Source of the DNA: Desulfocapsaceae bacterium
Lineage (GTDB): Bacteria > Desulfobacterota > Desulfobulbia > Desulfobulbales > Desulfocapsaceae
Direction: 5' to 3'
Assembly: GCA_028697885.1 (NCBI GenBank)
Contig: JAQVER010000012.1
Location: 1 to 55,373, forward strand
DNA: 55,373 nt
The notes under the pieces were generated by a model. That model was given only the letters and a program-made list of their open reading frames with translations, was not told where the DNA came from and searched no databases. Position numbers and translations under genes: made by a program. Of the stretch, positions 13,678 through 39,670 are shown in pieces; positions within the stretch are counted from its first letter, which is position 1, and every line of letters begins with the position of its first letter.

Positions 13678-14133
13678 TTATTTTTTTTCTACACTGCCAA
13701 AGGCAAACTTGCTGATCAGCGACTCCAGATCAACCGCCGACTCGGTATCGGTCATCACATCCCCTGCAACAAAGAGTTTATCATCACCACCCAAAGTCAG
13801 TTGAATATACTTATCACCAATAATCCCCTGTGTTTTAACCGAGGCCATGGAATCAACGGGAACTTTTACCCCTTTATCAATTTGCAGAGCCACATGGGCC
13901 AATTCATCTTTGCCAAGCCAGGTGCGTTGGACCTGCCCCACCACCACTCCGGCGATCTGGACTGCTGCACCCTTCTTCACCCCGGAGATATTGTCAAACT
14001 CGGCATTGACCACATAACTGTTTCCCGCACTTAGAATCGAGACCTCCCCCAGCTGTAAGGCCAGATACCCAAAGGCCAGAAAACCAAGCACCATAAAAAG
14101 ACCGACAAATAATTCAAGACCGTTCTGTTTCAT
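13678..14133 (-). CDS. mlaD: MlaD-type MCE-domain lipid-transport protein
   Basis: 151 residues: one N-terminal membrane helix (about 7-27) and one MCE domain with the typical VNAEFDNISGVKKGAAVQIAGVVVGQV segment and a LGGDDKLFVAGDVMTDT end. MlaD forms a periplasmic hexameric ring that binds phospholipid and sits on the MlaE permease, moving lipids between inner and outer membranes. It overlaps mlaF by 4 bp. No mlaC or mlaB lies beside it. Confidence 0.92.
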   Translation of the reverse strand: MKQNGLELFVGLFMVLGFLAFGYLALQLGEVSILSAGNSYVVNAEFDNISGVKKGAAVQIAGVVVGQVQRTWLGKDELAHVALQIDKGVKVPVDSMASVKTQGIIGDKYIQLTLGGDDKLFVAGDVMTDTESAVDLESLISKFAFGSVEKK

Positions 14134-14915
14134 TGTTCCACCAGATGACTCTGATAAATTTCACCCATTGTATTCTCCACAAACTGACGGATATGCGGTT
14201 CCCGCGACCATTGCAGAGCCTCAGGGCTGGCAAATACATCAATTTTCCCATTATTTAAAACAATAACCTGATCCGCCAGATTTAACACCTTGGGGATATC
14301 GTGGCTGACAATCACCGCTGTGTACCCAACTTGATCCTGGGTTCTGGCAAAAAGCTTATATATATCCTGAGTCATAACCGGATCAAGGCCAGTGGTAGGC
14401 TCATCAAAAAGCATAATCTCCGGCTTCAACTGCAAGGCTCTGGCTAGCCCCACCCGCTTACGCATGCCGCCACTCAACTGGGCAGGAAACTTTTCCTCAT
14501 GACCGGTCAGCTCCAGCTGAGTCAAAATGGCCATGACCTGCTCACGGATCTCACTATCCGACTTGCGGGTTCGCTCCCTGAGTGGCAAGGCCACATTCTC
14601 GTAAACACTCAAGGAATCGAAGAGGGCCGCGCCCTGAAAAAGTACCCCAAAGCGAGTGCGCAATTGTTCAAGGGAACGTCCCCGCAGCCCGGTCACATCT
14701 TCACCTCCAACCAAAATCCGGCCGCTGTCAACCGGCATCAGGCCAAGGATCAACTTCAAAGTAACACTTTTTCCCTGGCCGCTGCCGCCGGCAATGACGG
14801 TAGTCTTGCCAACCGGGATGGAAAAATTCACATGATCAAGAATTATCTGCCGCCCCCCATCCTTTTTGGCAAAGGACTTGGTCACATCTCTGAATTCTAT
14901 GGCAAATTCACTCAT
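14130..14915 (-). CDS. mlaF: MlaF-type ABC transporter ATPase
   Basis: 261 residues, the cytoplasmic ATPase of the phospholipid transporter. Walker A is GGSGQGKS, a form typical of MlaF; signature LSGGMRKRVGLARAL; Walker B plus D-loop MLFDEPTTGLDP; switch His in IVSHDIP. It lies between mlaE (115-bp gap, larger than usual) and mlaD (4-bp overlap). Confidence 0.94.
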   Translation of the reverse strand: MSEFAIEFRDVTKSFAKKDGGRQIILDHVNFSIPVGKTTVIAGGSGQGKSVTLKLILGLMPVDSGRILVGGEDVTGLRGRSLEQLRTRFGVLFQGAALFDSLSVYENVALPLRERTRKSDSEIREQVMAILTQLELTGHEEKFPAQLSGGMRKRVGLARALQLKPEIMLFDEPTTGLDPVMTQDIYKLFARTQDQVGYTAVIVSHDIPKVLNLADQVIVLNNGKIDVFASPEALQWSREPHIRQFVENTMGEIYQSHLVEQ

Positions 14916-15030
14916 ACGCCGTCGTCCAAAAAGAATTGCATCATTGAAATACCATAACCGGCATAATGATCCGTACCGAAATTAGTCCAAAATGTAGCAG
15001 TGCCAGCGGCGATAGTTATTTCGTAAGGGC

Positions 15031-15849
15031 TCATAACAAGACCGCTGTCAACAGATAGTCAAAGATAAGCACCGAAATAGAGGAAAAGACCACGGCCTGG
15101 GTGGTCACCCGGCTGACACTCTGAGCCCCGAAACCGGCCCCGCGGATCTGATAGATAAAATAACCGCGTCCTGTACAGATCCAAACCACCAGCAAAGCAA
15201 AGACAAAGGACTTGATCACCCCCAGACGGATATCATGGTTGGTTACGCTGGTGCGCATCCCCTCCAGATAACTACCGGGATTCACCCCCATGAGATGGAC
15301 TCCGGCAATATAGCCGCCGCCAATACCCACCACATCAAAAAGGGCCGTCAGCAGGGGAATAGAAACGAGCGCGGCCAGAAATTTTGGGCTGATCAGATAG
15401 CGAAAGGGATCAACTGCCATGCATTCAAGGGCATCAATCTGCTCCGAGATCCGCATGATGCCAAGCTCGGCGCACATGGCGGAACCCGCCCGCCCGGCCA
15501 CCATAATGGCGGTCAGGACCGGCCCGAGTTCCATGATAAGGGTAAGCGATACGGCAGAGCCAAGCATCCCCTCCGCTCCGAATTTGTGCAGTGAGTAATA
15601 ACCCTGCAACCCCAGCACCATACCTGTGGAAGCCGCAGTACAGAAGATCACCATCATGGAACCGGCACCGATAAAATGCATCTGGCGCATGAACTCGGCC
15701 ATCCGGAAAGGACGCCTGAACACTCCTTTAAGCGCCAGCAAAAGATAAAGGCCCATACGCCCCATATCCTGAAGCATATAGAGGCCTGTCTCTCCTAATT
15801 TTTCCACGGGATTTCGTTGCATACTGACTTCACCCTGCTCAAACGCCAT
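15031..15849 (-). CDS. mlaE: MlaE-type ABC transporter permease
   Basis: About 272 residues with five to six predicted membrane helices. MlaE-family signatures are clear: GMVLGLQGYYSLHKFGAE, then LGPVLTAIMVAGRAGSAMCAELGIMRISEQIDALECMAVDP, which is highly conserved across the family. I use the ATG at 15849; a GTG four codons earlier (15861) and an ATG at 15825 are also in frame. It is the first gene of the mla-bio run and follows a strong sigma70-like promoter (15896-15924). MlaB-type STAS and MlaC genes are absent. Confidence 0.93.
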   Translation of the reverse strand: MAFEQGEVSMQRNPVEKLGETGLYMLQDMGRMGLYLLLALKGVFRRPFRMAEFMRQMHFIGAGSMMVIFCTAASTGMVLGLQGYYSLHKFGAEGMLGSAVSLTLIMELGPVLTAIMVAGRAGSAMCAELGIMRISEQIDALECMAVDPFRYLISPKFLAALVSIPLLTALFDVVGIGGGYIAGVHLMGVNPGSYLEGMRTSVTNHDIRLGVIKSFVFALLVVWICTGRGYFIYQIRGAGFGAQSVSRVTTQAVVFSSISVLIFDYLLTAVLL

Positions 15850-15895
15850 CTCAGATAGCACAAGCTTTCAGAATATCTTTAAAAAAAGTCTCTGG

Positions 15896-16157: not shown

Positions 16158-16245
16158 GCCTGGATGGTGGAACTGGTAGACACCCGAGACTTAAAATCTC
16201 GTGGGCCTTGCGCCCGTGCGGGTTCGACTCCCGCTCTAGGCACCA
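16158..16245 (+). tRNA. tRNA-Leu (anticodon UAA)
   Basis: An 88-nt class II tRNA. The acceptor arm pairs GCCTGGA with TCTAGGC (one G-T wobble), the discriminator base is A and CCA is encoded. The anticodon stem CGAGA/TCTCG closes a 7-nt loop CTTAAAA with anticodon TAA at 16192-16194, reading UUA. A long variable arm (GGGCC...GGCCC-like) and a T loop GGTTCGACTCC follow. Terminator and promoter flank it, so it is a stand-alone gene. Confidence 0.97.
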
Positions 16246-16252
16246 ATAGGAT

Positions 16253-16289
16253 AAGGGGTTTCAGTGATTCACTGAAACCCCTTTTCTTT
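16253..16289 (+). terminator. Rho-independent terminator after tRNA-Leu
   Basis: A near-perfect stem (AAGGGGTTTCAGTG pairing with CACTGAAACCCCTT) closed by a three-base loop and followed by TTCTTTTTT. Directly downstream of the tRNA. Confidence 0.92.
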
Positions 16290-16536: not shown

Positions 16537-17220
16537 TTAATAATCGACATCACTTTTTGCAGCAATCAAAACGACTTCAGACATTCCTTCAACGTTGCCC
16601 AAGGCAATAGTCATTTTTTCGGCTGTAGTATCTTCTTTCAAAACAATATCATAGGTCAATCGCAGTGTCCGCCTATCTCCCGATGGCTCAATATGAAGCA
16701 TGTTGGAACGCTTACTGAACTCCTGAATAATTTCAAGGTATGCTGCGCTGTCAGAGTTCTGATCAAAGGTAAAGCGTAAAATGAATTCACTTTTGTAAAG
16801 GGCTCCGAAATTAAATTTATAAGTTACAAGAGCGAGAAATGACACAAAAAATGTGCTTACCAAGGCGAGGAAATAATTGGAAGTACCAGCTGCCATTCCT
16901 ACTGCCAAAGCCAGAAACACAAAGGCGATGTCACGCGTATCCTTGACCACCGTCCTGAAGCGAATTATCGAAAGAGCCCCTACCAGGGCAAATGCTTTAG
17001 CCAAGCTAGAACCAATAACCATCATGACAATGGCGACAATAATTGAAACGAAGAAAATAGTCTGGGTAAAAGACTGGGAATACGAGAGTCCCTTATGGGT
17101 ATAACGATAAACAGAGGCAAGCACAAAACCGAGGACAGCTGCCAGAACAACATTCAAAACCATTTCCTGGTACGAGTAAGTCAACATACTGCCAACAGCA
17201 TTTAATAACTGATCTTCCAT
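16537..17220 (-). CDS. DUF4956 membrane protein
   Basis: 227 residues: about four membrane helices in the first 140 residues followed by a soluble alpha/beta C-terminal domain (about 148-227). The block SLAKAFALVGALSIIRFRTVVKDTRD matches DUF4956, a family of unknown function often encoded beside VTC-domain and CotH proteins. It is the last gene of the four-gene operon, 28 bp after the VTC gene. A role as membrane partner of the VTC polymerase is an inference from this association. The ATG at 17220 is well placed. Confidence 0.85.
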   Translation of the reverse strand: MEDQLLNAVGSMLTYSYQEMVLNVVLAAVLGFVLASVYRYTHKGLSYSQSFTQTIFFVSIIVAIVMMVIGSSLAKAFALVGALSIIRFRTVVKDTRDIAFVFLALAVGMAAGTSNYFLALVSTFFVSFLALVTYKFNFGALYKSEFILRFTFDQNSDSAAYLEIIQEFSKRSNMLHIEPSGDRRTLRLTYDIVLKEDTTAEKMTIALGNVEGMSEVVLIAAKSDVDY

Positions 17221-17248
17221 AACATCCTCATCAATATTTTTAAATTAA

Positions 17249-17992
17249 TCAAAGATCCGCTTCTATTCCGAGAGACACCATGGCATGGCAGATCTTAGAA
17301 ACTGAGACACGGCGAAGTTCGTAAGCTTGAATTAAGTGATGAAACCAAGAGGGAATATGTCGACGAAATTTGACCTCCATTACAGTGTATCCAGGGAGCA
17401 AGCGCCTTGGCTGAGACGAACCGGTCCCCGGGAAAAGAGAACGAGTCATTGTTCCACGTAATTCGCTGTCAAAGGTCAGTCGAAATTCCGGATCGAAACG
17501 GCTGACATAGGGCCGTCTTACATAATCAACAAGGGCGACAGGACGCAATCTCTTCCGGTACAAGTCATACTCAAATTTTCTGCGAACATCGCCCTGAGAC
17601 ATAATACGGAGCAATGTGCTTACAAGAAGATCTCCGGATTCGTACTTAATTCCATTATGACTATCAAGAGGCGTTCTATTTTTTAGAACCAGATTATTGT
17701 ACCGTCCCTTGATCTCCATAAACTGGGGAGTACCATCAGAAGGATCATCCGTGTAAGTACGTACTCGGAATTTTGAGCGAGTGTGAAGTCCATCAACCTT
17801 ATCCCGGAAACATGTATTAAACGGGTCATCAAAGTATAAACTGCGTACGAAATACTGATGTTTAGGCTGTGTTAGTACATAAGGATCAAATTCCAAAAAA
17901 TATTTAAGCTCTCGTTCCAATTCCTGGCGAAGATCTTGAGGTAGCACATATTTGAATTCGAAACGAGAGAAGTGGAGTTTAGTGGCTTGCAA
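17249..17992 (-). CDS. VTC-domain (polyphosphate-polymerase-like) protein
   Basis: 247 residues forming a complete VTC domain of the triphosphate-tunnel superfamily, whose eukaryotic members make polyphosphate from ATP. Tunnel residues appear in order: FEFKYVL (Glu and Lys near 12-14), VRSLYFDD, KFRVRTY with alternating Arg, FMEIKGRYNN-x5-KNRTPL, and the late MEVKFRRHIPSW. Bacterial VTC proteins lack the SPX and membrane domains of yeast VTC4, so the substrate and product are unproven. Its start lies within the CotH gene end (14-bp overlap), and DUF4956 follows. Confidence 0.87.
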   Translation of the reverse strand: MQATKLHFSRFEFKYVLPQDLRQELERELKYFLEFDPYVLTQPKHQYFVRSLYFDDPFNTCFRDKVDGLHTRSKFRVRTYTDDPSDGTPQFMEIKGRYNNLVLKNRTPLDSHNGIKYESGDLLVSTLLRIMSQGDVRRKFEYDLYRKRLRPVALVDYVRRPYVSRFDPEFRLTFDSELRGTMTRSLFPGTGSSQPRRLLPGYTVMEVKFRRHIPSWFHHLIQAYELRRVSVSKICHAMVSLGIEADL

Positions 17993-20777
17993 CGTTCAAC
18001 GCTCCTCTTCTTGCGGGGTCAATCCGTTCCCAGAACCGCGAATCAAAATTTTTCAGATACTCAACTTCTTTCTTGTTACGGTGTAGTTTTTTCTCTTTTG
18101 CCTTAGTTGCGTCTCCAGTGTCAACTGAATCTGCAAGACTTATTCTTTTCGGGGTAGATTCAATCGGTTTATCTATATAACTATCGTAAACAAATATTTT
18201 TGATTTTTTGTCTGCCGTAATCATCTTTTTGTTCCCAATAACACGGCTCTTATAGAGATAAATCTTTCCACCATTTGCGTAACGCCAGTTTTTCTTATAA
18301 GCATCTAAAGCATGACCATTATCTGTTAAATCAAGGTTATAAAGGGACGCAACCGAACCATCCTTGGCCTGTACTCCAATCACATTATTTCGAAATATAT
18401 TGTTAATGGCTAGCAAGCGAGCCCCCTCGCCGACAGAGGCTGCTTTATCACCAGCGTTTTCGATTGTAGTATCAGTAATAATTACATTACTGGTCATAAG
18501 ATCAACGGAATCATTACCACTATCGACAAAATAACAACTTTGTATCACAGCATCACTAATATCAATATCAAGAGCATCCATCAATGCCCGTTCAAATCGA
18601 GAGTTACTAACATGAACCTGAGAGTATACAACATGTACCATATCATCAGTAAGGTGACTGTCACGAAACAGACAATTATTCACCTCGACGCCATCAACAT
18701 CATGTACAGACAACATGGCAGTATATTCAAAGAGATCGCCCTTCAGTCCACTCCCTCCAGCAAACTCACTATAAGAGATGCGAGAAGAATTAGCGCCACT
18801 TCCTTTCAAGACCAAAGCCCCCCAAGGTTCTTGCCCCTCACTCGCAGGCAAAAAACGAATGGGTTTTTCGGCAGTCCCTTCGGCAAGCAAGCGATTATGT
18901 AGAATAATGGTCGCCCCAGGTTTCATATGGAGTGTCGTCCCAGGCTCTATAATTAACTCACTAAAAATTTCTTGTACACCGGCAACCTCAATATCCCCTT
19001 TCCAGCGAGTTGCAATCTTCAACGGTTGCGAATGTACAATTTCATAAAGATCATTAAAAGAATATCGTTGAATGCTTTTCTCAAGGTTGGCATGCTCTTG
19101 TTGGTCTCCGCCTCTGTCAACCAAAATTTCATATAACTTATTTTCTATAGGAACACCTGAAATTTTCAGTTCATAGTAACCAGGTAAAATTTCAAGGTGA
19201 TTTTGAAATACCGATTCTTCTTCTTTAATTTTCATCCCACTTATGAGAGGAATGTCCAACTCAAGACGTACTCCGCGAACATTTAACCCGCCCGTCACAT
19301 CCTTCTCAATCTTCCTGCCATTTTCCCAATAATTTAGGGTCGCAGTAATATCCCCTTTTAATGGTTGTTCGTAAATCAAAAACGTTCGGTTAACAGGTCT
19401 TCGTCCGGTAATCAGGAAATTAACCCCCTCCGGATTCAGCGAAAAAGATACTTGCCCAGGGGGTAACAAAAGCTGTTCCTGCACATCTTCAAAGACTTCT
19501 TCAATGTGCAGCCTTCTCTCTCTCATCCTGGACTCAATTCTCTTTTGGGAATAGTGCAAGTTGGGATCATTGGCGATAACAGGTTTAATAGCGGCAATAA
19601 CTTGATCTGTCTCACTTAAAAATTTTTTATCAAGACCACTCTTAAAGAATTCCTCCAAAACATTCTGTCGGATACGCAAAAAATCCGCATTTTTGAATAA
19701 TGCTTTATGAAGTTTAGTCCTGATCACCTCAAAGGATATATCTTTACCCGAACCAGTAGGCCACTCAACCCATGCAATTGGATCCCAAATTATGGGTTCA
19801 AATTTACTGAGCATAGGGTCATAATACAAACGCCAATTGTGTGTTTCATCGTAATGAAAAGTCTGCGCCAGCGTCTCAAAAGCACTAAACCTAGCCCACG
19901 CCTCCAGATCGAGCAAATTACTCAACTGATCCTGAATTTCTTCTGAAGAAGGTGCATTGACAAGCTGAGCAAGTAATTCCAATGGTTTGTGTGAAGACTC
20001 TGGATAGTGATTATTTATGGAAATTTTTTTCCACAGGCCAGGATGGTCGAAAACTTGTTGGTTCACCCCAGCATAAGAATCTTTCCCAATTAATTCACCA
20101 GCATACATATCACCAGGCATCCGACCATGACGGCGCAATGTGAGCTCTTCTAGTTGTTCCAATAAAAGATAAAGTCCCTGCGTCTTTCCGTTCAAAGTTA
20201 ACTGAACCATCTCGCTATGTGGCGTCAGAAGCTTCAGGTAATCAGCCAATCGATAGGCGAGATAATCATGCAGCTGAAAAGCTCCCTTGGGGGAGTTAAT
20301 ATTAAATGCACGCATCCCTTCAAAAAGAGAACTTTTCTTAGTTTTTATTCTCAAAGATTTTTTAAAGAATCCCCAATGAGGCAAGAAATCGCCCCGGTAT
20401 CTCACCTTAACTTTATGAAGTCGCTTTCCATCCCATAATCCACCCTCGACATACTCATCAAGTCCAGAATGAGGTAGATTAGAGTCTAATTTTGCTAAAT
20501 TAGACTCTGGGACAAAGAGATTAATTGTTCTCAAAGAGTCTGTTTTGCCCTCTTTGTTATTCCTGGTAGAAAAAGCTAACCTTACACTTTGTAAAAGATG
20601 GGAGCCTTCCAACTCCCCAGCATAAAGTAAAGTCATTTTCGCGGGTGCAGAATTATAACGTACACCGAAGGTGTAATATCGATCCAAGGTTGCCCATGTC
20701 CAATAAACAAAGACGACAGTAATGGGGAGGGTAAGCAGCCAACTCCATCGCCATAAATACTTTTGCCAGTCCTTCAT
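17979..20777 (-). CDS. CotH-kinase-like membrane-anchored protein with right-handed beta-helix
   Basis: 932 residues. One N-terminal membrane helix (about 12-29) leads to an extracytoplasmic CotH domain (about 60-420): VRYRGDF, KKSLRIK, LHDYLAYRLAD, LTLNGKTQGLYLLLEQLEE, and the distal NWRLYYD-x8-EPIIWDP metal-binding region. CotH proteins are atypical secreted kinases; spore-coat CotH phosphorylates proteins. A charged beta-rich middle is followed by a parallel beta-helix (about 600-840), with short ladder repeats such as VEVNNCLFRDS and VIITDTTIENAG, typical of carbohydrate-interacting domains. It overlaps both neighbours (4 bp upstream, 14 bp downstream). A surface glycan or protein substrate is inferred. 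Confidence 0.87.
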   Translation of the reverse strand: MKDWQKYLWRWSWLLTLPITVVFVYWTWATLDRYYTFGVRYNSAPAKMTLLYAGELEGSHLLQSVRLAFSTRNNKEGKTDSLRTINLFVPESNLAKLDSNLPHSGLDEYVEGGLWDGKRLHKVKVRYRGDFLPHWGFFKKSLRIKTKKSSLFEGMRAFNINSPKGAFQLHDYLAYRLADYLKLLTPHSEMVQLTLNGKTQGLYLLLEQLEELTLRRHGRMPGDMYAGELIGKDSYAGVNQQVFDHPGLWKKISINNHYPESSHKPLELLAQLVNAPSSEEIQDQLSNLLDLEAWARFSAFETLAQTFHYDETHNWRLYYDPMLSKFEPIIWDPIAWVEWPTGSGKDISFEVIRTKLHKALFKNADFLRIRQNVLEEFFKSGLDKKFLSETDQVIAAIKPVIANDPNLHYSQKRIESRMRERRLHIEEVFEDVQEQLLLPPGQVSFSLNPEGVNFLITGRRPVNRTFLIYEQPLKGDITATLNYWENGRKIEKDVTGGLNVRGVRLELDIPLISGMKIKEEESVFQNHLEILPGYYELKISGVPIENKLYEILVDRGGDQQEHANLEKSIQRYSFNDLYEIVHSQPLKIATRWKGDIEVAGVQEIFSELIIEPGTTLHMKPGATIILHNRLLAEGTAEKPIRFLPASEGQEPWGALVLKGSGANSSRISYSEFAGGSGLKGDLFEYTAMLSVHDVDGVEVNNCLFRDSHLTDDMVHVVYSQVHVSNSRFERALMDALDIDISDAVIQSCYFVDSGNDSVDLMTSNVIITDTTIENAGDKAASVGEGARLLAINNIFRNNVIGVQAKDGSVASLYNLDLTDNGHALDAYKKNWRYANGGKIYLYKSRVIGNKKMITADKKSKIFVYDSYIDKPIESTPKRISLADSVDTGDATKAKEKKLHRNKKEVEYLKNFDSRFWERIDPARRGALNVASH

Positions 20778-22312
20778 CGGACGACCCCCATAACATGAAC
20801 GTCACTATTTGAAGCAAACTCTGGAGTTTTAAAAGAAAAATAAGGATCTAAGCCTAAAATTTCAAAAAAGCTTCCTTGCTTTTTAATATTATTTTGCAGA
20901 ACAAAGGATAATTTTTCGACATCAACCTGCTGTTTGTGCTGGCCACGAACGAACTCTAATTGAGTCAAGACATAAGAGACATTCCTAACATCAGGAAAAT
21001 CGAGACGTAGTTCAGAAGCTTTTCCCTTGACGGGAAGAAAAACATTGAACTCCATTCCCCCTGTAGCTTGATTCAACACCATGAGTGCACGACTTTTTTT
21101 CTCTTCAGAAAAATCCTCCCCTTCACTCCTCCAAAAGATTTCCACGTATGCTTGTGCTAAAGCACCAATAAGTATTTTGTTCGCTTGTTCCATGGTGGTC
21201 TTGGAAGTTTTCTTCGTTTCTTCTTGCCAGATGGATCTCAATTGCTCAACTTCAAGGTTCTCCCCCCTCGCCAAGAGCTCAGCTTCAATAGACTTTCCTT
21301 CAGGAGAGAGGGCAAGTTGAATCATTTCCTCAGGAAAAAACAATCCCACTTGGAGTTCCAGTGATATGGCAAGTTTTTCACCAATAGGCGGATCGGGCAT
21401 CTGCCAATAAAAGTAGGGATCATTCCCTCCAGAAGTTTTTAGAAAAACACCATGCCGTGTCATTTGGTTAAACTGCAGAGGTCTCTCCAATAAATGAAAA
21501 GTAGTCTCTTTTTCTCCTTCCTTAATAAATAGTTTTGGATCGAAAATAGAAATCTTTGAAAAGGATGGTGGATCAATACGGAGGCGTTTTACATCACTAT
21601 CCAACTCAACATTTAATACAATTCTATTATCGAGAGTTAATTCAGGACTGAACCTCTTCTTATTTGTCTCTTTGAAGCCATCACCAAGATCCCAATAGAC
21701 GACCCACGATCCATCATATTCATGCCGACCTGCACTAACTGATCTGGAAAAAACAATAAAGGCTTCTGTATATTTCTCTTGTTTATTCAATATCTCGGCA
21801 TAAGTCTTGGCAACCACTTCCGCTTCAGGCACCCTCTTAAATAAGTTCTTCAATAATTCAATGCCTTCCTTTTCTCTACCAGGAATAAAACTCACCAATT
21901 TGCCCCGTATGGCCTGCGCTTTTAAATCATTTTCATCAAACTCCACCCATTTTTCAGCCCAAAACAAGGCACGTTCAAAATACTTCGCCTCCATCAGAGC
22001 CTCTGTGAGAAGGGATAAAGACCTACGCTTAATAGGATCTAAACGATCCATTACTTTAATTGATTCGAGATCGACCAAAAGAGCTTCTAAGGCATCAATT
22101 CCATTTGCAGAATCTTTCTTCAAAATATCCTGTGATTTATCAAGACGATGTTGATACTTGCCAACATACATTGACACTACCTTCCTATCGACAGTATCAA
22201 TAAATGTTTCTCCAAAAGACCAACACAATACGGTGGCCCCTGCCAGAAGTGATATCAATATCAAAACAACAAGAAAATAATTAGTTATGTTTTTAATCAT
22301 AGCATGCTTCAT
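20774..22312 (-). CDS. Membrane-anchored TPR-like protein of unknown function, CotH-operon partner
   Basis: 512 residues that I do not recognise as a named family. One N-terminal membrane helix (about 12-32) is followed by helical TPR-like repeats (about 50-200; e.g. LLTEALMEAKYFERALFWAEKW and AEILNKQEKYTEAFIVFSRSV). After these come two beta-rich blocks (about 205-330 and 425-500) with WVVYWDLGDGF and VFLPVKGKASELRLDFPDVRN, which look like carbohydrate-type beta sandwiches. It starts the four-gene operon and overlaps the CotH gene by 4 bp (ATGA). Its topology suggests a periplasmic scaffold or substrate-recognition subunit; that is inference. Confidence 0.75.
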   Translation of the reverse strand: MKHAMIKNITNYFLVVLILISLLAGATVLCWSFGETFIDTVDRKVVSMYVGKYQHRLDKSQDILKKDSANGIDALEALLVDLESIKVMDRLDPIKRRSLSLLTEALMEAKYFERALFWAEKWVEFDENDLKAQAIRGKLVSFIPGREKEGIELLKNLFKRVPEAEVVAKTYAEILNKQEKYTEAFIVFSRSVSAGRHEYDGSWVVYWDLGDGFKETNKKRFSPELTLDNRIVLNVELDSDVKRLRIDPPSFSKISIFDPKLFIKEGEKETTFHLLERPLQFNQMTRHGVFLKTSGGNDPYFYWQMPDPPIGEKLAISLELQVGLFFPEEMIQLALSPEGKSIEAELLARGENLEVEQLRSIWQEETKKTSKTTMEQANKILIGALAQAYVEIFWRSEGEDFSEEKKSRALMVLNQATGGMEFNVFLPVKGKASELRLDFPDVRNVSYVLTQLEFVRGQHKQQVDVEKLSFVLQNNIKKQGSFFEILGLDPYFSFKTPEFASNSDVHVMGVVR

Positions 22313-22712: not shown

Positions 22713-25700
22713 TTATCGATTTTTCACTTGAACGCGCTTATGATATTGTTTCATACGTTGTTCTCTTTTTTTGGATATAGTTTTATTAAATGGCACACGA
22801 TACAGCGATGTAGTTTTTGCTATTCTTGAAAATTTATATTGTTTAAAATACCTAACCCAAAGATCCCAATCCTCAAGAAGGTCCATTTCTGGATCAAATC
22901 CCCCTAGCTTCTCATAGCATTCTCTTCGAAACAGAACGGCCTGGATAGGGAAGAAATTTATCCGCATGATAGAATCATTATCGGGTTCTTCTGTGTGTCC
23001 CAAGGTATAATGCCTTTCATAATAATGCTCTTTTTTTTCTGTTTCTTCAGTTGAGACACAAAATGCCGAAGACCAAACAGCCCCACAATATGGTTTGTCA
23101 GAAATTGCATTCACTAGCGTTTCAATATGATCACAATACAATAAATCGTCTTCATCAAGAAAATTGAAAAAATCACCAGTAGCCATTTCTAAACCAATGT
23201 TCCCTGCTCGGCAACGACCTACTTTTTCTGTTGATTTATATACTATATTGAAATCTTTAAATTTAGAGACAATATCTTCAGCTATACTTGAACCATCCTC
23301 AACAATAACTATTTCAATATTCCTATATGTTTGATTGACAATTGAATAAATAGCCCTCTCTAAATAATCAAGACGACCGATCGTTCTTACGATAACAGAT
23401 ACTTTTGTAAATTGTGGGGATACTTTGCTGACAAAAAACCCTCCTTCACGTGCTATCTCATAATTATATCCATCAAAGAATGGCTCGAAGAAATCATTGG
23501 ACTCACATCTTGTCTCTCTAAAATAGGCACTTTCCTTTTCTGTAGTGGTAAGTTCCTCACATTCAGTAGAAGAAAGATTTTCCTTTGCATATCGAGCAAA
23601 CCGAACAAGTAAGTCCTTCCCAATTTTTATATCTTGCTCATTACCGTAACGATTCCGCAAAAAATAATTATGTTTTACCCCATAAAGCTGAGCAATCGGC
23701 TTTACTTCTCCAGGTTTGCTATAGCTGTGATGAGTAATCGTTACAGATGGACAATAAAGTAGACGGTAACCATTGGCTCTCAACCGCCAACTCAAATCTA
23801 CATCCTCACAATACATGAACAATTTCTCATCAAAACCTTGTAGCTCTTCGAAAGCATCTCGTTTCACAACCACTGCAGCGCCACTAAACCAACTGGTTTC
23901 CAAGGAGACCGGGTCATAACACTTGGGATGCTCATATGGAAGCTGTCGCAATTCCCACGCAACAACATCATTATTTGATAGTGTTATGATATTGCTTAAC
24001 TTTGAAAATGCTTCTGTGTCATGCAATTCTGTGTCGATATTAAGAAAAAATAGATAGTTACCAGTTCTAGCTTTAGCTCCTAAATTATTTGCCGCACCGA
24101 AACCTAAATTAAATTCATTTTTTACAATCTTGAATGATGAGAATTTGCGCTGATACAATTCCAATCTAGCAATTGTATCATCCGTGGAAGCATTATCAAC
24201 AATCGTAATTGTTATATTTTTGTCATGAGGGAGTAATGAAGTCATACAATTATCAATCCATCTTGATGAATTGTATGTAACCAGAACAAGGTCAAAATGT
24301 AACAATTCTGATCGGCTTGCAGTAAAAGACATGATAGGAGCTGATGAGAGTTCCCCGTTTCTTGCCCGTTCATAGCCTGGAATAATAGGTGCAGATGACA
24401 CACGTCCTCCCTCTGCCCCATGCTTCAGATAATGAAGCAATGGATTTATACCACCACAGACGACATCCGGATACTCACTAAGATACCATTGCACATCAAA
24501 ATAGGGGTTGGGCTTTCTTCCCTCTTCTGCACCATGTTTCAGATAATGGAGCAGCGGATCCATACCACTCAGGGCAACGTCGGGATATTCACTCAAATAC
24601 CATTGAGTATCAAAATAAGGATTAGGACTTCTTCCTTCAGCTACTCCATACTTCAGATAATGAAGCAATGGACTCATGTTTCTACGGACCACATCCGGAT
24701 ACTCACTAAGATACCATTGAGAGAAAAAATAAGGACTAGGGTTGTTTCCCTCTTTGATCCCATACTTCAAATAATGGAATAGGGGGTTCACCCCTCTACG
24801 GACAACGTCAGGATATTCACTCCAATACCATTGAGTATCAAAATAGGGACTGGGATTCTTCCCTTCATTAACTCCGTACTTCAGGTAATGCAGTAGGGGA
24901 TTTACACCACTAAGAGCTACTTCCGGATATTCACTCAGGTACCATTGAGTATCAAAACAGGGGTTGGTATTTTTCTTCTCATCTACTCCGTGCTTAAGAT
25001 AGTGCAGCAGTGGATTCATACCACTCTGGGCTACATCTTTATATTCACTCAGGTACCATTGGGTATCAAAATACGGGCCGGGGTTGTTCCCGTTTGCCGC
25101 TCCATGTTGCAGGTAATGCAGCAGTGGATTCATACCACTACGGGCTACATCCGGATATTCTTTCAAGTACCATTGGGTATCAAAATACGGATTAGGATTC
25201 CTTCCCTCTTCAACCCCATGTTTCAGATAATGGTACAGGGGATTTATACCACTATAGGCGACATCTGGATATTCACTCAGGTACCATTGGGTATCAAAAT
25301 ACGGATTAGGATTCCTTCCCTCTTCAACCCCGAGATAACAATAGTGATGCAAAGGATGCATTCCTGACATTTTCACATCTAGATATTGACTAGAATACCA
25401 TGCAGCATCAAATAAAGGTAACGCCTTGATTTCTCTCTTAAGCAACTGACATTCAGCCCATTTTCTCAAATTCAGTTTAAACAGGCTACATCCTAATTTT
25501 GTAAAAACATTATGCGTAACAGCACGATGCATCTGATTAATTTTCTTTTCTTGCTCTTGTTGATTCTTTTTTAGAATCGCTATTTGCCCATCACGTTGAA
25601 CCACGATTTGCTGACAATTAGAGAGCTGCCTATCACGGCCAGCCAAAACCTGATTCAGAAGGACGATCTGGCCATCACGATCAACCACATCCTGATTCAA

Positions 25701-26612
25701 ACGGACAACCTGGCCGTCACGCTCGACCAAAGATTCAGTGGCTGTAAATAATCTGTCGATTAGGACAAATGGTGATTTAAGACGATCAAATTCGTCTGAC
25801 CATTGAGCTATTTTATTCTGTAACCCGACGTCATCAGAACTTATTTTATCAGAAGCCACATTAAGCAAAGCAGTATAGATCTCACGAACAATTAAAGGAC
25901 AAGCATCATCCAACACCAAATCATTCAAATCATTAACCGCATGTCGCAGACTTTGATCAAGAATTTCTGTTTTATAGTTTTGTAATTCGGTAAGGTCAAT
26001 TTCCAAATCTAGGCATTGTGCAATCCGATTCAACTCACGATCTGGTGATTGCATCAGACGATCATAATCAACAAATACACGCCTTTCACCAACGGTGCCT
26101 GATAAACTCGCGACAACATATCCAAGCCACAGCAGGTGACTTTTCTCTGCATCAAAACTATTACGTTTAGCTAATGACTTGGCTACGCTCAGGGGATGAC
26201 GCACGGCAATAACATAGCTCACGTCGAACTGACAGTAGTTAAACACCTCTTTCCAAAAAAGTAATAATTTTGCCACACGCGGATCTTTAAAAGCAAAGAG
26301 AGGAACCTTGTCAACTTTCAGACGCAGCAAGTCCACTGCACGGAAAAAATAACCTTTCTTCTGTAATAACTCCACATCGATTGACTCGATCGGAGCGAGA
26401 TGGTGCCAATCACTATTGACAGCGCTCAACATCTCAATATTGATTGTATTAAGATCAATATCTTCCCAAAATCCTTTTTGGTTATCTTCCTTAGAGGGTA
26501 AAAAGCTATCTCCAAGATTGACACCCAAAGCTTGTAAACCACGAGTCATAACACTCGTGCCACTGCGGTGCATTCCCAACACAACAATAATGGATTTTTT
26601 ATTATCACCCAT
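22713..26612 (-). CDS. Multidomain sulfotransferase / nine-repeat / double GT2 glycan protein
   Basis: 1299 residues. Residues 1-270 are a sulfotransferase-like P-loop domain (GMHRSGTSVMTRGL binds the phosphosulfate donor; AVRHPLSVAKSL is the 3'-phosphate strand). A coiled coil of four 14-residue RDGQ-x3-LNQ repeats lies near 292-350. Nine copies of a 38-residue repeat follow (about 398-741; consensus YFDTQWYLSEYPDVA, then NPLLHYLKHGVEEG), a module known in bacterial glycosyltransferases. Then come two GT2 domains: about 775-1010 (VTYNSS, VDNASTDDT, NIDTE, CEDVDLSWR) and 1075-1290 (IVEDGSS, LDEDD, LLEDWDLW). It probably adds two sugars and sulfate to the exported glycan. It is last in the Wzm/Wzt operon, 21 bp after a second sulfotransferase. 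Confidence 0.88.
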   Translation of the reverse strand: MGDNKKSIIVVLGMHRSGTSVMTRGLQALGVNLGDSFLPSKEDNQKGFWEDIDLNTINIEMLSAVNSDWHHLAPIESIDVELLQKKGYFFRAVDLLRLKVDKVPLFAFKDPRVAKLLLFWKEVFNYCQFDVSYVIAVRHPLSVAKSLAKRNSFDAEKSHLLWLGYVVASLSGTVGERRVFVDYDRLMQSPDRELNRIAQCLDLEIDLTELQNYKTEILDQSLRHAVNDLNDLVLDDACPLIVREIYTALLNVASDKISSDDVGLQNKIAQWSDEFDRLKSPFVLIDRLFTATESLVERDGQVVRLNQDVVDRDGQIVLLNQVLAGRDRQLSNCQQIVVQRDGQIAILKKNQQEQEKKINQMHRAVTHNVFTKLGCSLFKLNLRKWAECQLLKREIKALPLFDAAWYSSQYLDVKMSGMHPLHHYCYLGVEEGRNPNPYFDTQWYLSEYPDVAYSGINPLYHYLKHGVEEGRNPNPYFDTQWYLKEYPDVARSGMNPLLHYLQHGAANGNNPGPYFDTQWYLSEYKDVAQSGMNPLLHYLKHGVDEKKNTNPCFDTQWYLSEYPEVALSGVNPLLHYLKYGVNEGKNPSPYFDTQWYWSEYPDVVRRGVNPLFHYLKYGIKEGNNPSPYFFSQWYLSEYPDVVRRNMSPLLHYLKYGVAEGRSPNPYFDTQWYLSEYPDVALSGMDPLLHYLKHGAEEGRKPNPYFDVQWYLSEYPDVVCGGINPLLHYLKHGAEGGRVSSAPIIPGYERARNGELSSAPIMSFTASRSELLHFDLVLVTYNSSRWIDNCMTSLLPHDKNITITIVDNASTDDTIARLELYQRKFSSFKIVKNEFNLGFGAANNLGAKARTGNYLFFLNIDTELHDTEAFSKLSNIITLSNNDVVAWELRQLPYEHPKCYDPVSLETSWFSGAAVVVKRDAFEELQGFDEKLFMYCEDVDLSWRLRANGYRLLYCPSVTITHHSYSKPGEVKPIAQLYGVKHNYFLRNRYGNEQDIKIGKDLLVRFARYAKENLSSTECEELTTTEKESAYFRETRCESNDFFEPFFDGYNYEIAREGGFFVSKVSPQFTKVSVIVRTIGRLDYLERAIYSIVNQTYRNIEIVIVEDGSSIAEDIVSKFKDFNIVYKSTEKVGRCRAGNIGLEMATGDFFNFLDEDDLLYCDHIETLVNAISDKPYCGAVWSSAFCVSTEETEKKEHYYERHYTLGHTEEPDNDSIMRINFFPIQAVLFRRECYEKLGGFDPEMDLLEDWDLWVRYFKQYKFSRIAKTTSLYRVPFNKTISKKREQRMKQYHKRVQVKNR
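24390..25420 (-). repeat. Nine tandem 114-bp coding repeats
   Basis: Nine in-frame copies of a 114-bp unit encode the 38-residue WYLSEYPDV/LLHYLKHG repeat. The first copy (highest coordinates) is most diverged and the central copies are most alike at DNA level, consistent with duplication inside the gene. Confidence 0.92.
25567..25735 (-). repeat. Four tandem 42-bp coding repeats (coiled coil)
   Basis: Four 14-residue units (ERDGQVVRLNQDVV and variants) in the same gene, an exact double heptad and therefore a coiled-coil rod between the sulfotransferase and the 38-residue repeats. Confidence 0.85.
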
Positions 26613-26633
26613 ACAGATTACTTAGTTGAATTT

Positions 26634-27413
26634 TCATATTTTATAGCTCGAAAATGATACCCCTAGAATAGCTAAGGCAATTTCAATCTGCTCTGAAGTC
26701 AAGTCGGTCTGCCAACGCCCTACACTTCGGTTATGCACCCTGTCAGTAGTAACAACCTTAGGGTCTTCTATTCCCCGACCTCGCTCAGCATGGCTGAAAT
26801 TATTCAACACCTGTGCTTCAAAATCTTCACCTAACCAGTTAAAAAGAGATTTTAATGTGGCGGTGGGGGCAGTTACCAGTTCCTCGTATCGGATACGAAA
26901 ACTCGTCTCCGGATACAATTTTTCATATCGCAATCCCTCGTCCACAAAGGTCTTGAGAAACTTAACCTTGTCCTCGAATATTGCCGGTACAGCCTTGGCA
27001 AAACCGATCTCAAGTAACGAGGCAAGTACATCCAGCGGGTGACGCACTACATGAACAAACACAAAACCGCCAGGCAGCAGATGCTGCCATTGGTCGAGGT
27101 ACAATAGGTTTTCGGGATTTTTATCCGCCCATCGCGCCTTGCCTGCCTTGCGGGCAGCCAATTCATGCGCCTCTATGAACGCACGGCCAAAGATGTCACG
27201 TATCTCATCTGGCTCTAAACCCAATGATGGAAGAGTGGAGAACAAACGAACATGGGCAAGGGGATCATTCAGATAATCGCCCCTTAGATCCTTAAAGAAT
27301 TTGACCTCAGGTCCGCAATGAATGCGGCTGTGCGCATCCAGCAAACGACGAATCAAAGAAGTCCCGGAACGATAAAAACCACCGACTATAATGGGCATCT
27401 CTTTTATCGACAT
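26634..27413 (-). CDS. Sulfotransferase family protein
   Basis: 259 residues from the ATG at 27413, chosen because GGGGAG lies 7 nt upstream; a longer frame reaching 27479 would overlap the previous gene by about 60 bp. The PAPS-binding P-loop is GGFYRSGTSLIRRLLDAH, and the 3'-phosphate segment is HVVRHPLDVLASLLE with its Arg and Ser. A late RIRYEELVTAP and NRSVGRWQTDL region is typical of the family. It transfers sulfate from PAPS to a hydroxyl, probably on the glycan handled by this operon. It lies 4 nt after the Wzt-fusion stop codon. Confidence 0.9.
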   Translation of the reverse strand: MSIKEMPIIVGGFYRSGTSLIRRLLDAHSRIHCGPEVKFFKDLRGDYLNDPLAHVRLFSTLPSLGLEPDEIRDIFGRAFIEAHELAARKAGKARWADKNPENLLYLDQWQHLLPGGFVFVHVVRHPLDVLASLLEIGFAKAVPAIFEDKVKFLKTFVDEGLRYEKLYPETSFRIRYEELVTAPTATLKSLFNWLGEDFEAQVLNNFSHAERGRGIEDPKVVTTDRVHNRSVGRWQTDLTSEQIEIALAILGVSFSSYKI

Positions 27414-27417
27414 ACCA

Positions 27418-29559
27418 TCACTCCCCAAAAAAAGGATGGGTGGTAAAGGGGTTGGAACGATCCCAACCGTCATTGTCAAAATTTTTCAATTCCTGCCGGC
27501 GAGGCAATCTCACCTTACTAGGGTCAAAGCGTGCACGCGCACCGTGCCATTGACGTTCTTCAACCTCCTTCGGACTGTAGATGCGTTCCTGACCATATTT
27601 CTTCAGGAGATGTTTACGACTAAGAGCCAGATAGTGACGCAAGATAAAAGCTTCAGGGTACAAATTTCGTTTGGGAAAAACCACTTGATGACCTGCCATT
27701 GACACCAAGTCCACAGGTGACGATTGTTTCTTCCAGGCGTTGACTCTATGTAAAGGCTGGGGTGAAAAAAAATAATAGTCACGGAATCGAGCCACAAAAT
27801 CAGAAGGTTCGCTGTCTTCGCAGTCATTTTCAACGGGCAGAAACACAAATTCGTCAAAATTCACCGCATTATAACCTGCTTGATCAACCATTATCAAAGC
27901 AGCCAATAATGTAGAGAAGCCGGGAGGTGGCTCTCGTATCTCATCTGCATCATGATGGATGAACCAATCGGCTTCAATCTCCGCGGCCAATTGTTCCTTA
28001 ATGCGCAGCTGTTCAACTAAATCGAAGTAGCCTGTGTAGGGTTGCCTCTCAATGCGAAATACCCCCCTACCCAGATATTGTTTGGCAATGGCAAGACTCT
28101 CATCGCAGGAATCGTTGTCGATCACGCAGGTCTCAATCCCTTGTTGATGCAGGTGTTCCAGGCAACGTGGCAAATATAGCGCCTCATTACGAATCGCCAG
28201 TAGAGCCACGACGCGTTTTTTCTCAGTTACCAAAACCGGTGCCGAAGATGGACTATGAACTTGTCTCATCCCAATATCTACCGTACCTAGAAAATCAGGC
28301 TCATAAGGATTTACTTCAAAAGACAATACGGCTGTCTGTTTATCCACAGGTATAAAATTCCGCATTATCCCCCTGCTTTCCAGACGCAAGGTGACGAAAT
28401 AGGTTCCCGGCCAAAATCGGGCATCAAAAGCCACCTCAATGGTCGCAATCGATTTTCCTTCCCGAGTGGAATCTGCTCGAAGAAAAAAATATTTGCCGGT
28501 TATGTCAAGCATACGCCGGTCCATCAGGATCACACTTAAGGCTGCACCTGGCAGATCGCAATCAAATTGGGTTTCAATACGAATACGAACACTTTCACCC
28601 GAGCCAACGGACGTCTTCATACTTTCGTCGGGAAGAAAGCAGGCAGAAACAATCCGTCCCTGTTCAGTCCCAAATGCAGGCAAACCGCTTTCACCCAAAG
28701 ACTTCTTAATGACCACCGGCTTTCCATTAACAGTTTGGCGGCTTTGTTCGTCACGAATATCGAGGAAATATTGTTCTGCTACCGTATCCGGTTGGCCTCG
28801 CATCTTCTCATGACCATGTTCCAGATAGATCACCTGATGGCAGAAGCTTTTGACCATGTTCATGTCGTGGGAAACAAAAAGTAAAGTGGTACCAGATTTG
28901 GTCAGTCGCTGCATTCGCTCCATGCACTTAAATTGAAAAGCAGCGTCACCGACAGCCAGGGCCTCATCTATAATAAGAATATCTGGATCGACACAGACTG
29001 CAACCGCAAATGCCAGACGTACCACCATACCGCTGGAATAAGTTTTTACAGGTTGTTCAATAAAGTCCCCAATGTCTGCAAAGGCAGTTATATAATCAAA
29101 GCGTGAATTGATTTCTTCATTGCTAAGTCCTAGCACCGAGGCATTCATATACACGTTTTCGCGCCCGGTAAATTCAGGGTTGAACCCAGATCCGAGTTCC
29201 AGCAAAGCGGCAATACGTCCATAGGTTTGGATGCTTCCACTGGTTGGATTAAGCGTGCCACAAATCATTTGCAATAGAGTTGATTTTCCACTGCCATTAA
29301 GACCGATAATGCCAACCGTTTCACCCTTTCGAATCTCGAAAGAAACATCTTTGAGCGCCCAGAATTCGCGATAATATTGCTTAGGTGATTTACCCACCAT
29401 CTGCCTTAAATGTGGCAAGATGAACTGTTTAAGCCGTTCTCGAGGAGCGTCATAGATTTGATAACACTTGCTGAGGCTGTGAACGCAAATGGCGATTTCC
29501 TGGCACTCAGAGTTGTCGGTCAGCGAAGAAGAGGAAGTGGATTTAAAGGACATCAGCAA
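27418..29559 (-). CDS. Wzt-type polysaccharide-export ATPase fused to a GT2-like glycosyltransferase
   Basis: 713 residues. About 20-275 form an ABC ATPase of the Wzt/TagH kind (Walker A GLNGSGKST at 86-93; signature TYSSGMVVRLAFA; Walker B ILIIDEALAVGD). About 300-430 form a Wzt C-terminal beta-sandwich, which binds the glycan terminus before export. About 445-700 are an additional domain starting KRVVALLAIRNEALYLPRCLEHL, with CVIDNDSCDES and HHDADE, like glycosyltransferase family 2. Normal Wzt proteins end after the beta-sandwich (around 400-430 residues), so this is a fusion. Its start overlaps the permease gene by 17 bp. Confidence 0.9.
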   Translation of the reverse strand: MLMSFKSTSSSSLTDNSECQEIAICVHSLSKCYQIYDAPRERLKQFILPHLRQMVGKSPKQYYREFWALKDVSFEIRKGETVGIIGLNGSGKSTLLQMICGTLNPTSGSIQTYGRIAALLELGSGFNPEFTGRENVYMNASVLGLSNEEINSRFDYITAFADIGDFIEQPVKTYSSGMVVRLAFAVAVCVDPDILIIDEALAVGDAAFQFKCMERMQRLTKSGTTLLFVSHDMNMVKSFCHQVIYLEHGHEKMRGQPDTVAEQYFLDIRDEQSRQTVNGKPVVIKKSLGESGLPAFGTEQGRIVSACFLPDESMKTSVGSGESVRIRIETQFDCDLPGAALSVILMDRRMLDITGKYFFLRADSTREGKSIATIEVAFDARFWPGTYFVTLRLESRGIMRNFIPVDKQTAVLSFEVNPYEPDFLGTVDIGMRQVHSPSSAPVLVTEKKRVVALLAIRNEALYLPRCLEHLHQQGIETCVIDNDSCDESLAIAKQYLGRGVFRIERQPYTGYFDLVEQLRIKEQLAAEIEADWFIHHDADEIREPPPGFSTLLAALIMVDQAGYNAVNFDEFVFLPVENDCEDSEPSDFVARFRDYYFFSPQPLHRVNAWKKQSSPVDLVSMAGHQVVFPKRNLYPEAFILRHYLALSRKHLLKKYGQERIYSPKEVEERQWHGARARFDPSKVRLPRRQELKNFDNDGWDRSNPFTTHPFFGE

Positions 29560-30397
29560 AACCTTTTCTGGTTTTTTGGAACCAGACGTATCCAGCCCAA
29601 GCTACAATAGTTGCTGCAAAGGTATAAATACCCAATCCCATCCAATCTGGCAGGTGCCCCCAGATCAACACTTCTCGTGCTTGCTCAATGATGAAAGTAA
29701 GCGGGTTTGCCATAATGACTGGACGAAACCTCTCCGGCACAGCGCTCAACGGATAAAAAACAGGGGAAAGAAACATCAACAAGGTGGTAATCACAGTGAT
29801 GGTTTGCCCGACGTCGCGCAGAAATACACCCAGAGATGCAAGCATCCAGGAAAGACCAAGGGTAATAATAATTAATGGAAGAAATACAAACGGGGTAAAA
29901 ACTACCGTCCAGTGCAAATAGCCATTAAAGAGTGTAAAGGCCGCCAGTAGCACACCGAGACTGATGAGACTGTGGAATAACGTAGCACCCATGGCAATAA
30001 CTGGCAGTATTTCAATAGGAAATACGACTTTTTTAACGTAATTAACGTTACCAAGAATCAACCCTGGGGCGCGGTTGATTACCTCGCTGAATAGGCTCAA
30101 TACGATTAAACCAACAAAGAGCACCAAAGCAAATTGTGTTTTGCTGTCGTCACCACCACTCCCACCCCAGCGAGACTTAAAGACCTCAGAAAAGACAAAA
30201 GTGTACACTACCAGCATAAACACAGGATTGAAGAACGACCAAGCGAGTCCAAGTGCCGAACCTTTATAGCGTCCCACCACTTCACGCTTGGTCATTTGCA
30301 CAATAAGTTGACGGTTACGCCAGAGCCCTTTCCCCAATGCTATGAAAGACGTAGGTTGGTTGGCATGGGGGTTGGTTCCCTGATGACTAGGGGTCAT
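29543..30397 (-). CDS. Wzm-type ABC-2 polysaccharide export permease
   Basis: 285 residues when started at the ATG at 30397, which has GGAG 8 nt upstream; the frame stays open to 30472. Six membrane helices and the family's amphipathic N-terminal segment (LIVQMTKREVVGRYKGSALGLAWSFFNP) identify it as the membrane half of an O-antigen/capsule-type ABC exporter that works with the adjacent Wzt protein. First gene of the four-gene export operon. A perfect 10-bp inverted repeat lies about 40-60 bp upstream of the chosen start. Confidence 0.92.
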   Translation of the reverse strand: MTPSHQGTNPHANQPTSFIALGKGLWRNRQLIVQMTKREVVGRYKGSALGLAWSFFNPVFMLVVYTFVFSEVFKSRWGGSGGDDSKTQFALVLFVGLIVLSLFSEVINRAPGLILGNVNYVKKVVFPIEILPVIAMGATLFHSLISLGVLLAAFTLFNGYLHWTVVFTPFVFLPLIIITLGLSWMLASLGVFLRDVGQTITVITTLLMFLSPVFYPLSAVPERFRPVIMANPLTFIIEQAREVLIWGHLPDWMGLGIYTFAATIVAWAGYVWFQKTRKGFADVL

Positions 30398-30434
30398 TCG
30401 AAGCGCTCCATTTTTACCAACGATTTGACTTGTT

Positions 30435-30459
30435 GTTCTTTTGACATGATCAAAAGAAC
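30435..30459 (-). promoter_or_regulatory. Perfect inverted repeat upstream of the wzm-wzt operon
   Basis: GTTCTTTTGA and TCAAAAGAAC, perfect 10-bp arms with a 5-bp spacer, just before the likely wzm start. No U-tract follows, so an operator fits better than a terminator. Confidence 0.5.
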
Positions 30460-30489
30460 AGTAAAGATCCACTATTCTTTCTCTGTAGA

Positions 30490-34224: not shown

Positions 34225-34421
34225 TGGGTAGGAGAAAAGCAAAAACACCTCGTTGCAGCGCACCCGTAGTCACTATGGTATACCCAAAAGCACACCTCCC
34301 TCATAAGGATTTCCTCGCCTCGTCTTTGGGCCTTCTTGTCGTCTGCCTGGTCATTCCTATCTCCTTAATAGAATTTTGCGAAGCCCTCAAAATCGACTTT
34401 CTCAGGTTGTCCAAGCCATGA
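34224..34421 (+). CDS. Possible small membrane protein in the LPS-core operon
   Basis: A 65-residue frame whose ATG overlaps the msbA stop (TGATG) and whose TGA overlaps the methyltransferase ATG (ATGA). It is basic at the N-terminus, then has one hydrophobic segment (FLASSLGLLVVCLVIPISLI) and a short tail. The perfect fit at both ends and the membrane helix argue for a real coupled gene. No family is recognised and the first 25 residues look like random reading frame, so a non-coding spacer remains possible. Confidence 0.4.
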   Translation: MGRRKAKTPRCSAPVVTMVYPKAHLPHKDFLASSLGLLVVCLVIPISLIEFCEALKIDFLRLSKP

Positions 34422-35167
34422 TAAAATATCATCAGGATCGCATTGATTTTGCCTCATTACATCAAAATAACATCGACAGGATCCAACTGGAAATGATCTC
34501 GGCAAAAAGTCACGTCCTGGAAATTGGCTGTGCCACCGGTTACATGACGGAATACCTTGCCCGAGACAAGCAATGCCGGGTGTTAGGGGTAGAACCTGTC
34601 CAGGAGCAGGCGGAACTGGCCAGAAAAAGAGGGCTGGAGGTTATTACCGGCCTGATAGACTCACAAGAGACCCAGGAACAACTTATTGCCCACACTAAAA
34701 AGCACGGTCCGTTTGAGACTATATTCATGTCTCAAGTCATTGAACATATTGCCGATCCTGCCGCCACCCTGTTCGCCCTCAAGAAGCTACTCAGTCCCGA
34801 CGGTTTTCTTGTTATCTCCACCTGCAGTATTGTCCACTGGAAATGTAGGCTGCAGATCCTTTTGGGCAGGTGGGAATATGAAGATTATGGCATTTTGGAC
34901 CGTACCCATCTTCGCTTCTTTACCATCAGCAGCTTTCGCCAACTCCTTGAAGAGTGTGGCTACAAAATCGTCGATTTTGGCTACACTTTTGAGGATATAT
35001 GCCCCTTTAAGATCATGTTTGACACCCGCATTCTCGCCCCTTCCGACCTCCTGCGCCTGATCCCCTTTTTCGGCATGCGCCTGCGGCGAGCCTACACGGA
35101 TCTCTGTAAAAATTTCCTGGCCACCCAATTTGTCTATAAAGTCCAGCCAGCCCAAGACCCGAAATAA
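34418..35167 (+). CDS. Class I SAM-dependent methyltransferase
   Basis: 249 residues from the ATG at 34418 (the frame also opens at a TTG at 34376). SAM-binding motif I is VLEIGCATGYMTEYLA, with the acidic residue after strand 2 in VLGVEP, and motif IV is FMSQVIEHIADP, as in Methyltransf_23-type enzymes of polysaccharide loci. The C-terminal 80 residues include LLGRWEYEDYGILDRTHLRFFT, a common feature of this group. It probably methylates a sugar of the LPS core or O-antigen. It sits in the msbA operon between a tiny ORF and an acetyltransferase. Confidence 0.88.
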   Translation: MIKYHQDRIDFASLHQNNIDRIQLEMISAKSHVLEIGCATGYMTEYLARDKQCRVLGVEPVQEQAELARKRGLEVITGLIDSQETQEQLIAHTKKHGPFETIFMSQVIEHIADPAATLFALKKLLSPDGFLVISTCSIVHWKCRLQILLGRWEYEDYGILDRTHLRFFTISSFRQLLEECGYKIVDFGYTFEDICPFKIMFDTRILAPSDLLRLIPFFGMRLRRAYTDLCKNFLATQFVYKVQPAQDPK

Positions 35168-35171
35168 AATC

Positions 35172-38855: not shown

Positions 38856-38871
38856 ATTTTGAATCTTAATT

Positions 38872-39666: not shown

Positions 39667-39670
39667 CAGA

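Follow-up and report, generated by a model that had tools for sequence, protein, structure and literature searches.

A CotH, VTC and DUF4956 gene set with a modular fourth protein beside surface-polysaccharide genes in a Desulfocapsaceae bacterium

The grouping of a CotH-type kinase, a polyphosphate polymerase of the VTC type and a DUF4956 membrane protein has been published as an accessory set whose genes lie side by side in the pel operons of Gram-positive bacteria (PMC7112168), and the corresponding S. intermedius genes, SIR_1592-1594, have been deleted, giving a DUF4956 mutant with more Pel, a CotH mutant with less Pel, and a VTC-gene mutant in which aggregation and Pel were still present (PMC12345266). 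The authors of the latter study did not find the three-gene arrangement outside Pel. Similarly, the C. perfringens locus NELoc-2 combines VTC, CotH, a HEAT-repeat protein and a chitin-synthase-like glycosyltransferase (PMC2879425). As for the individual families, Bacillus CotH acts as a protein kinase (PMC7821199), and yeast Vtc4 is inactivated by substituting R264, R266 and E426 (PMC9911596). A first-pass annotation of the locus presented here called the system undescribed, a label that the pel literature takes away from the trio itself; what is new is its independence from Pel, the apparently near-obligate pairing of VTC with DUF4956, the conservation of the VTC tunnel and the identity of a module in the fourth protein, orfA.

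The window, a stretch of 55,373 nucleotides, carries four genes reading in the same direction on the minus strand at 16537-22312, in the order orfA, CotH, VTC and DUF4956 (Table 1), with overlaps of 4 bp between orfA and CotH and 14 bp between CotH and VTC, a gap of 28 bp between VTC and DUF4956, and an intergenic stretch of 400 bp ahead of orfA; open reading frames and Pfam bear out the gene calls, the domain calls and the single overlapping operon of the first-pass annotation. CotH, VTC and DUF4956 are each single-copy in the host genome (174 contigs, completeness 99.8%). Mla-type genes, assigned by eye, lie at 13678-15861, and the envelope is of the Gram-negative type. The G+C content is 41% in the operon, compared with 52% over the window's first 16 kb. 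Now considering that eight genomes of the genus share the genes ahead of the tRNA-Leu(TAA) position while the DNA beyond it differs between most of them, and that no other genome of the genus within a set of 258 genomes from the order has VTC or DUF4956, the operon lies in a variable and probably acquired region that also holds the sulfotransferase, glycosyltransferase and Wzm/Wzt-type genes. At locus L148, the DNA adjoining this tRNA position encodes a look-alike, by eye, of the type I restriction-modification protein HsdM. A stem-loop at 16253-16283 was considered as the operon terminator and dropped, since its T-run fits the plus-strand tRNA. Among the glycan genes on the other side, 22713-26612 encodes a protein of 1299 aa whose N-terminus is sulfotransferase-like; it also has two GT2 domains and repeats in tandem, each about 40 aa long (FDTQWYLSEYPDV...).

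Table 1. Positions of the operon genes, their domains and the flanking features within the window
Feature	Position	Strand	Remarks
orfA	22312-20774	-	512 aa, ATG start; ORF
CotH kinase-like protein with C-terminal right-handed beta-helix	20777-17979	-	932 aa, ATG start
VTC / triphosphate-tunnel polymerase-like protein	17992-17249	-	247 aa, TTG start
DUF4956 membrane protein	17220-16537	-	227 aa, ATG start
orfA module copy 1	21377-21739	-	profile 5.4e-30, orfA itself being a row of that profile
orfA module copy 2	20804-21190	-	matches profile built without orfA
CotH kinase domain	19542-20405	-	candidate catalytic Asp310 (DETHN) and Asp332 (WD)
Beta-helix region of CotH protein	18168-19022	-	Pfam and comparison with relatives
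tRNA-Leu(TAA)	16158-16245	+	past operon end, opposite strand; DNA beyond differs between genus genomes
Surface-polysaccharide genes: sulfotransferase-like/GT2 protein, sulfotransferase, Wzt-type ABC protein with GT domain, Wzm-type permease	22713-30472	-	
Further glycan-type genes: ABC exporter, methyltransferase, GT2, GT4, GT9, GT2, GT2	32479-40471	.	

The grouping of VTC, DUF4956 and CotH is far beyond chance. Across the 258 genomes of the order, VTC is found in 19, DUF4956 in 20 and CotH in 25, and the counts for both, VTC alone, the partner alone and neither are 19/0/1/238 for VTC with DUF4956 (Fisher p=7e-28) and 18/1/7/232 for VTC with CotH (Fisher p=4e-21), both p values ignoring shared ancestry. 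All VTC genomes (19/19) thus have DUF4956 and 18/19 have CotH, the exception being G155, where a beta-helix protein takes the place of CotH (L040:10171-12849, in a record that is partly masked with X) and Pfam does not score a CotH domain. VTC lies within 10 kb in 76 of the 80 named-genome loci chosen by DUF4956, and a local profile finds CotH in at least 70 of all 100 loci examined, a lower bound given that some loci are cut off by contig ends and that a strong CotH in L101 escaped the profile; by record title these loci belong to Deltaproteobacteria, Myxococcota, Caldilineaceae, Acidobacteria, Planctomycetes, Verrucomicrobia and Firmicutes. In 14 control genomes, VTC and DUF4956 match in the same three, two of which also have CotH. 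The first-pass annotation had named a lack of joint conservation as what would overturn it, and these figures decisively say the opposite, with DUF4956 appearing, from gene content, as a near-obligate membrane partner of VTC.

The VTC protein matches its Pfam domain at 1.5e-37 and, among PDB sequences, its profile matches yeast Vtc4 (PDB 3g3q) at 2.4e-17 versus 0.62 for another tunnel enzyme, an inorganic triphosphatase. Sequence comparison with Vtc4 also aligns the tunnel residues, a point on which the earlier proposal had been made to depend: E12, K14, K74, R76, R78, E93, K95, K104, R159, R171, E206, K208 and K233 are all present, each is kept in 90-93 of 93 sequences, and the counterparts of R264, R266 and E426 are among them, so that the protein by all appearances keeps the whole polyphosphate-polymerase tunnel under strong constraint. 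Its partner DUF4956 (PF16316, 7.1e-15) has the invariant GALSI-x-RFR motif and is modelled (pLDDT 87.7) as a bundle of membrane helices followed by a C-terminal ACT/ferredoxin-like domain, an architecture already described for SIR_1592 (PMC12345266). Among the structure matches listed for this model, all span residues 142-227 only and none covers the membrane part.

The 932-aa CotH protein scores 1.6e-26 with Pfam CotH (PF08757; 94 bits against a curated cut-off of 23.8) and 2.2e-7 with Pfam Beta_helix, and its kinase domain matches the CotH kinase structure PDB 5jd9 at 4.1e-17. Asp332 aligns with the WD aspartate of the catalytic pair (D228 and D251 in B. subtilis), and Asp310 stands one residue off the D228 position relative to 5jd9 but is found in the relatives too; the two are a candidate catalytic pair that the protein keeps. 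Export is likely from family membership; the N-terminus is rich in W and hydrophobic by eye and falls under a simple hydropathy threshold. The subtype with a beta-helix is shared by L032, L036, L040, L045, L048 and L120.

orfA consists of an N-terminal hydrophobic anchor (residues 13-31), a helical, TPR-like region and two sandwich-like modules, the sandwich fold itself being a guess. In Pfam, TPR families are reached below threshold only (best ANAPC3, 0.015), NCBIfam gives no match, and in a comparison with TPR scaffolds of the AlgK, BcsC and PelB type the match to BcsC TPR is weak (E=1). Single-sequence AlphaFold gives a helical repeat region for residues 1-140 (pLDDT about 73-93) and pLDDT values mostly of 23-44 past residue 160, where the module fold is not resolved. 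A module of about 130 aa makes up the C-terminal half, where it occurs twice, the copies being 25% identical over 111 aa. Eight loci of the order have, between DUF4956 and CotH, a gene for a protein of 270-300 aa, and a profile built from seven such proteins with orfA left out finds orfA at 3e-8 among about 1000 ORFs, the best domain covering residues 379-498 (i-E 1.8e-6); ten module sequences have invariant W, R-x-D and D-P positions. orfA is two modules joined to an anchored helical repeat. The first-pass annotation saw in it a protein specific to this operon and asked whether it accompanies the other three genes, and the answer is divided: no full-length homologue was found in 58 relatives (one partial match), in a pattern scan of genome contigs or in plasmids, but the modules recur, in eight relatives as a separate gene within the VTC-DUF4956 locus.

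The module, which has no match in PDB sequences or Pfam, occurs in 96/258 genomes of the order, also at the N-terminus of the CotH protein of L042, in DUF2142-type membrane proteins and in AlgX-type acetyltransferases, and this distribution over DUF2142, AlgX-type and CotH-locus proteins suggests that it marks surface-polysaccharide proteins of the order. At L042:8108-9751, an AlgX-type acetyltransferase with a C-terminal module of this type is encoded directly upstream of the VTC gene. Also, a 309-aa exported-looking protein without a significant family match is encoded directly after DUF4956 at L032:8272-9201.

Turning to the polysaccharide itself, a Pel reading of the host locus was rejected, as the genome has no match to PelF (PF11997). 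Furthermore, PelF is present in 5/66 tested genomes with DUF4956 loci, absent from 61/66 and found in 0/19 within the order, and the trio is thus mostly Pel-independent, contrary to the statement in PMC12345266. Links to glycan machinery take several forms. In Paenibacillus abyssi, a single ORF of 1088 aa (L122:5932-9198) matches PelG (5e-130) and CotH (2.9e-62), a possible fusion known from one genome in which an assembly error is conceivable. Firmicutes loci follow the order VTC, DUF4956, CotH, an unknown protein of ~690 aa, a HEAT protein and a GT2; in 19 loci the GT2 lies downstream at a near-constant distance of about 4.5 to 6.5 kb, and it is chitin-synthase-like in the one locus scanned. 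This arrangement, seen at L112:9222-16734 and other Firmicutes loci, is a synthase cluster distinct from Pel. Genes for glycosyltransferases, Wzx, Wzm or O-antigen ligase adjoin L032, L039, L040, L043 and L120, and glycosyltransferases occur at 9/19 loci of the order versus 3/20 control regions (p=0.04), counts that are lower bounds since some families escape the small local profiles. No obvious polysaccharide genes adjoin the set at several loci (e.g., L037, L041 and L034). A role in polysaccharides is drawn from three contexts together, namely the Pel clusters, the Firmicutes HEAT-GT2 arrangement and the Gram-negative glycan clusters of the window, L032, L040 and L120.

The adjacency of the trio, the tunnel residues, the CotH aspartates, the glycan neighbors and the presence of orfA modules on DUF2142 and AlgX-type proteins are best explained, with about an even chance of being right, by an accessory module that serves a surface polysaccharide and links phosphate-polymer chemistry in the cytoplasm to the phosphorylation or control of the glycan. 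VTC would make polyphosphate, or short polyphosphate, from ATP beside DUF4956, which would gate or pass the product across the membrane, or the product would be sensed; across the membrane, CotH would add phosphate to the glycan or to a matrix protein, using ATP or exported polyphosphate, and its own beta-helix, together with orfA, would keep it attached to the growing glycan. The context favors the glycan as the external acceptor. Counted against this explanation are the CotH domain of L040, which Pfam no longer recognizes, the loci, such as those named above, without obvious polysaccharide genes, the hydropathy of the CotH N-terminus, and the literature searched, which held no biochemistry of any bacterial VTC. 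This last point also speaks for a divergent triphosphate tunnel enzyme acting on another substrate, such as a nucleoside triphosphate or a lipid-linked pyrophosphate, with no link to polyphosphate; triphosphate tunnel enzymes as a class do vary in substrate (PMC4641920), but the preference of the profile for Vtc4 over inorganic triphosphatase makes this very unlikely.

The differing effects of the S. intermedius mutants speak against a simple linear pathway and leave room for two further readings. One is a bacterial VTC complex that only makes and exports free polyphosphate for storage, metal binding or surface charge, while CotH separately phosphorylates surface proteins as in the spore coat. 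Intact tunnel residues, the near-obligate DUF4956 partner, the coupling of synthesis to membrane passage by yeast VTC (PMC9911596) and the protein kinase activity of Bacillus CotH all agree with it; it is nevertheless doubtful, since CotH is repeatedly linked to glycan machinery, including the PelG-CotH single ORF, and since polyphosphate storage hardly accounts for the beta-helix and the glycan-type modules. The other is a regulatory module in which VTC and the ACT-domain protein DUF4956 control polysaccharide synthesis according to a nucleotide or phosphate signal that they sense, with no phosphate polymer exported, as might be read from the C-terminal ACT/ferredoxin-like domain, from a Pel level that rises on deletion of DUF4956 and falls on deletion of CotH, and from a VTC mutant without reported loss. 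Tunnel conservation in 93 sequences suggests catalysis and not sensing alone, and such a module has no need for an exported kinase, which renders it unlikely. Returning to the accessory module, its boldest version, in which VTC polyphosphate passed via DUF4956 is the phosphoryl donor or transferred group for a CotH glycan kinase outside the cytoplasm, is decidedly unlikely; if true, it would provide an energy supply for extracytoplasmic polysaccharide phosphorylation that is spread over many bacterial phyla.

The trio is a consistent gene set of bacterial surfaces, with descriptions found only for Pel-type loci and one Clostridium locus; standing mostly without Pel, it points to a general phosphate step in building cell-surface sugars. 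Two questions become testable: whether bacteria couple a VTC-type polyphosphate polymerase to a membrane partner, and where exported CotH-type kinases obtain their phosphate.

How, then, does this locus compare with what is known? The spore coat kinase CotH has the same kinase domain and catalytic Asp positions, whereas the protein here is fused to a beta-helix and stands in a glycan context. The yeast VTC complex has, as judged from alignment, the same tunnel domain and catalytic residues, but the VTC protein here, at 247 aa only, is without SPX and without a fused membrane domain, and its membrane part would be DUF4956, a member of another family. C. perfringens NELoc-2 similarly places VTC and CotH beside a glycosyltransferase in a gene order that recurs in Firmicutes loci, whereas the present locus has no HEAT protein and no adjacent processive GT2, and instead has the TPR-like region and modules of orfA. 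The accessory set of the Gram-positive pelDEADAFG operon (SIR_1594-1592) has the same three families, contiguous and beside surface-polysaccharide genes, but here the genome is without PelF, CotH carries a beta-helix, orfA is added, and the set is found in a Gram-negative-type envelope with Wzm/Wzt, glycosyltransferase and sulfotransferase genes as its neighbors.
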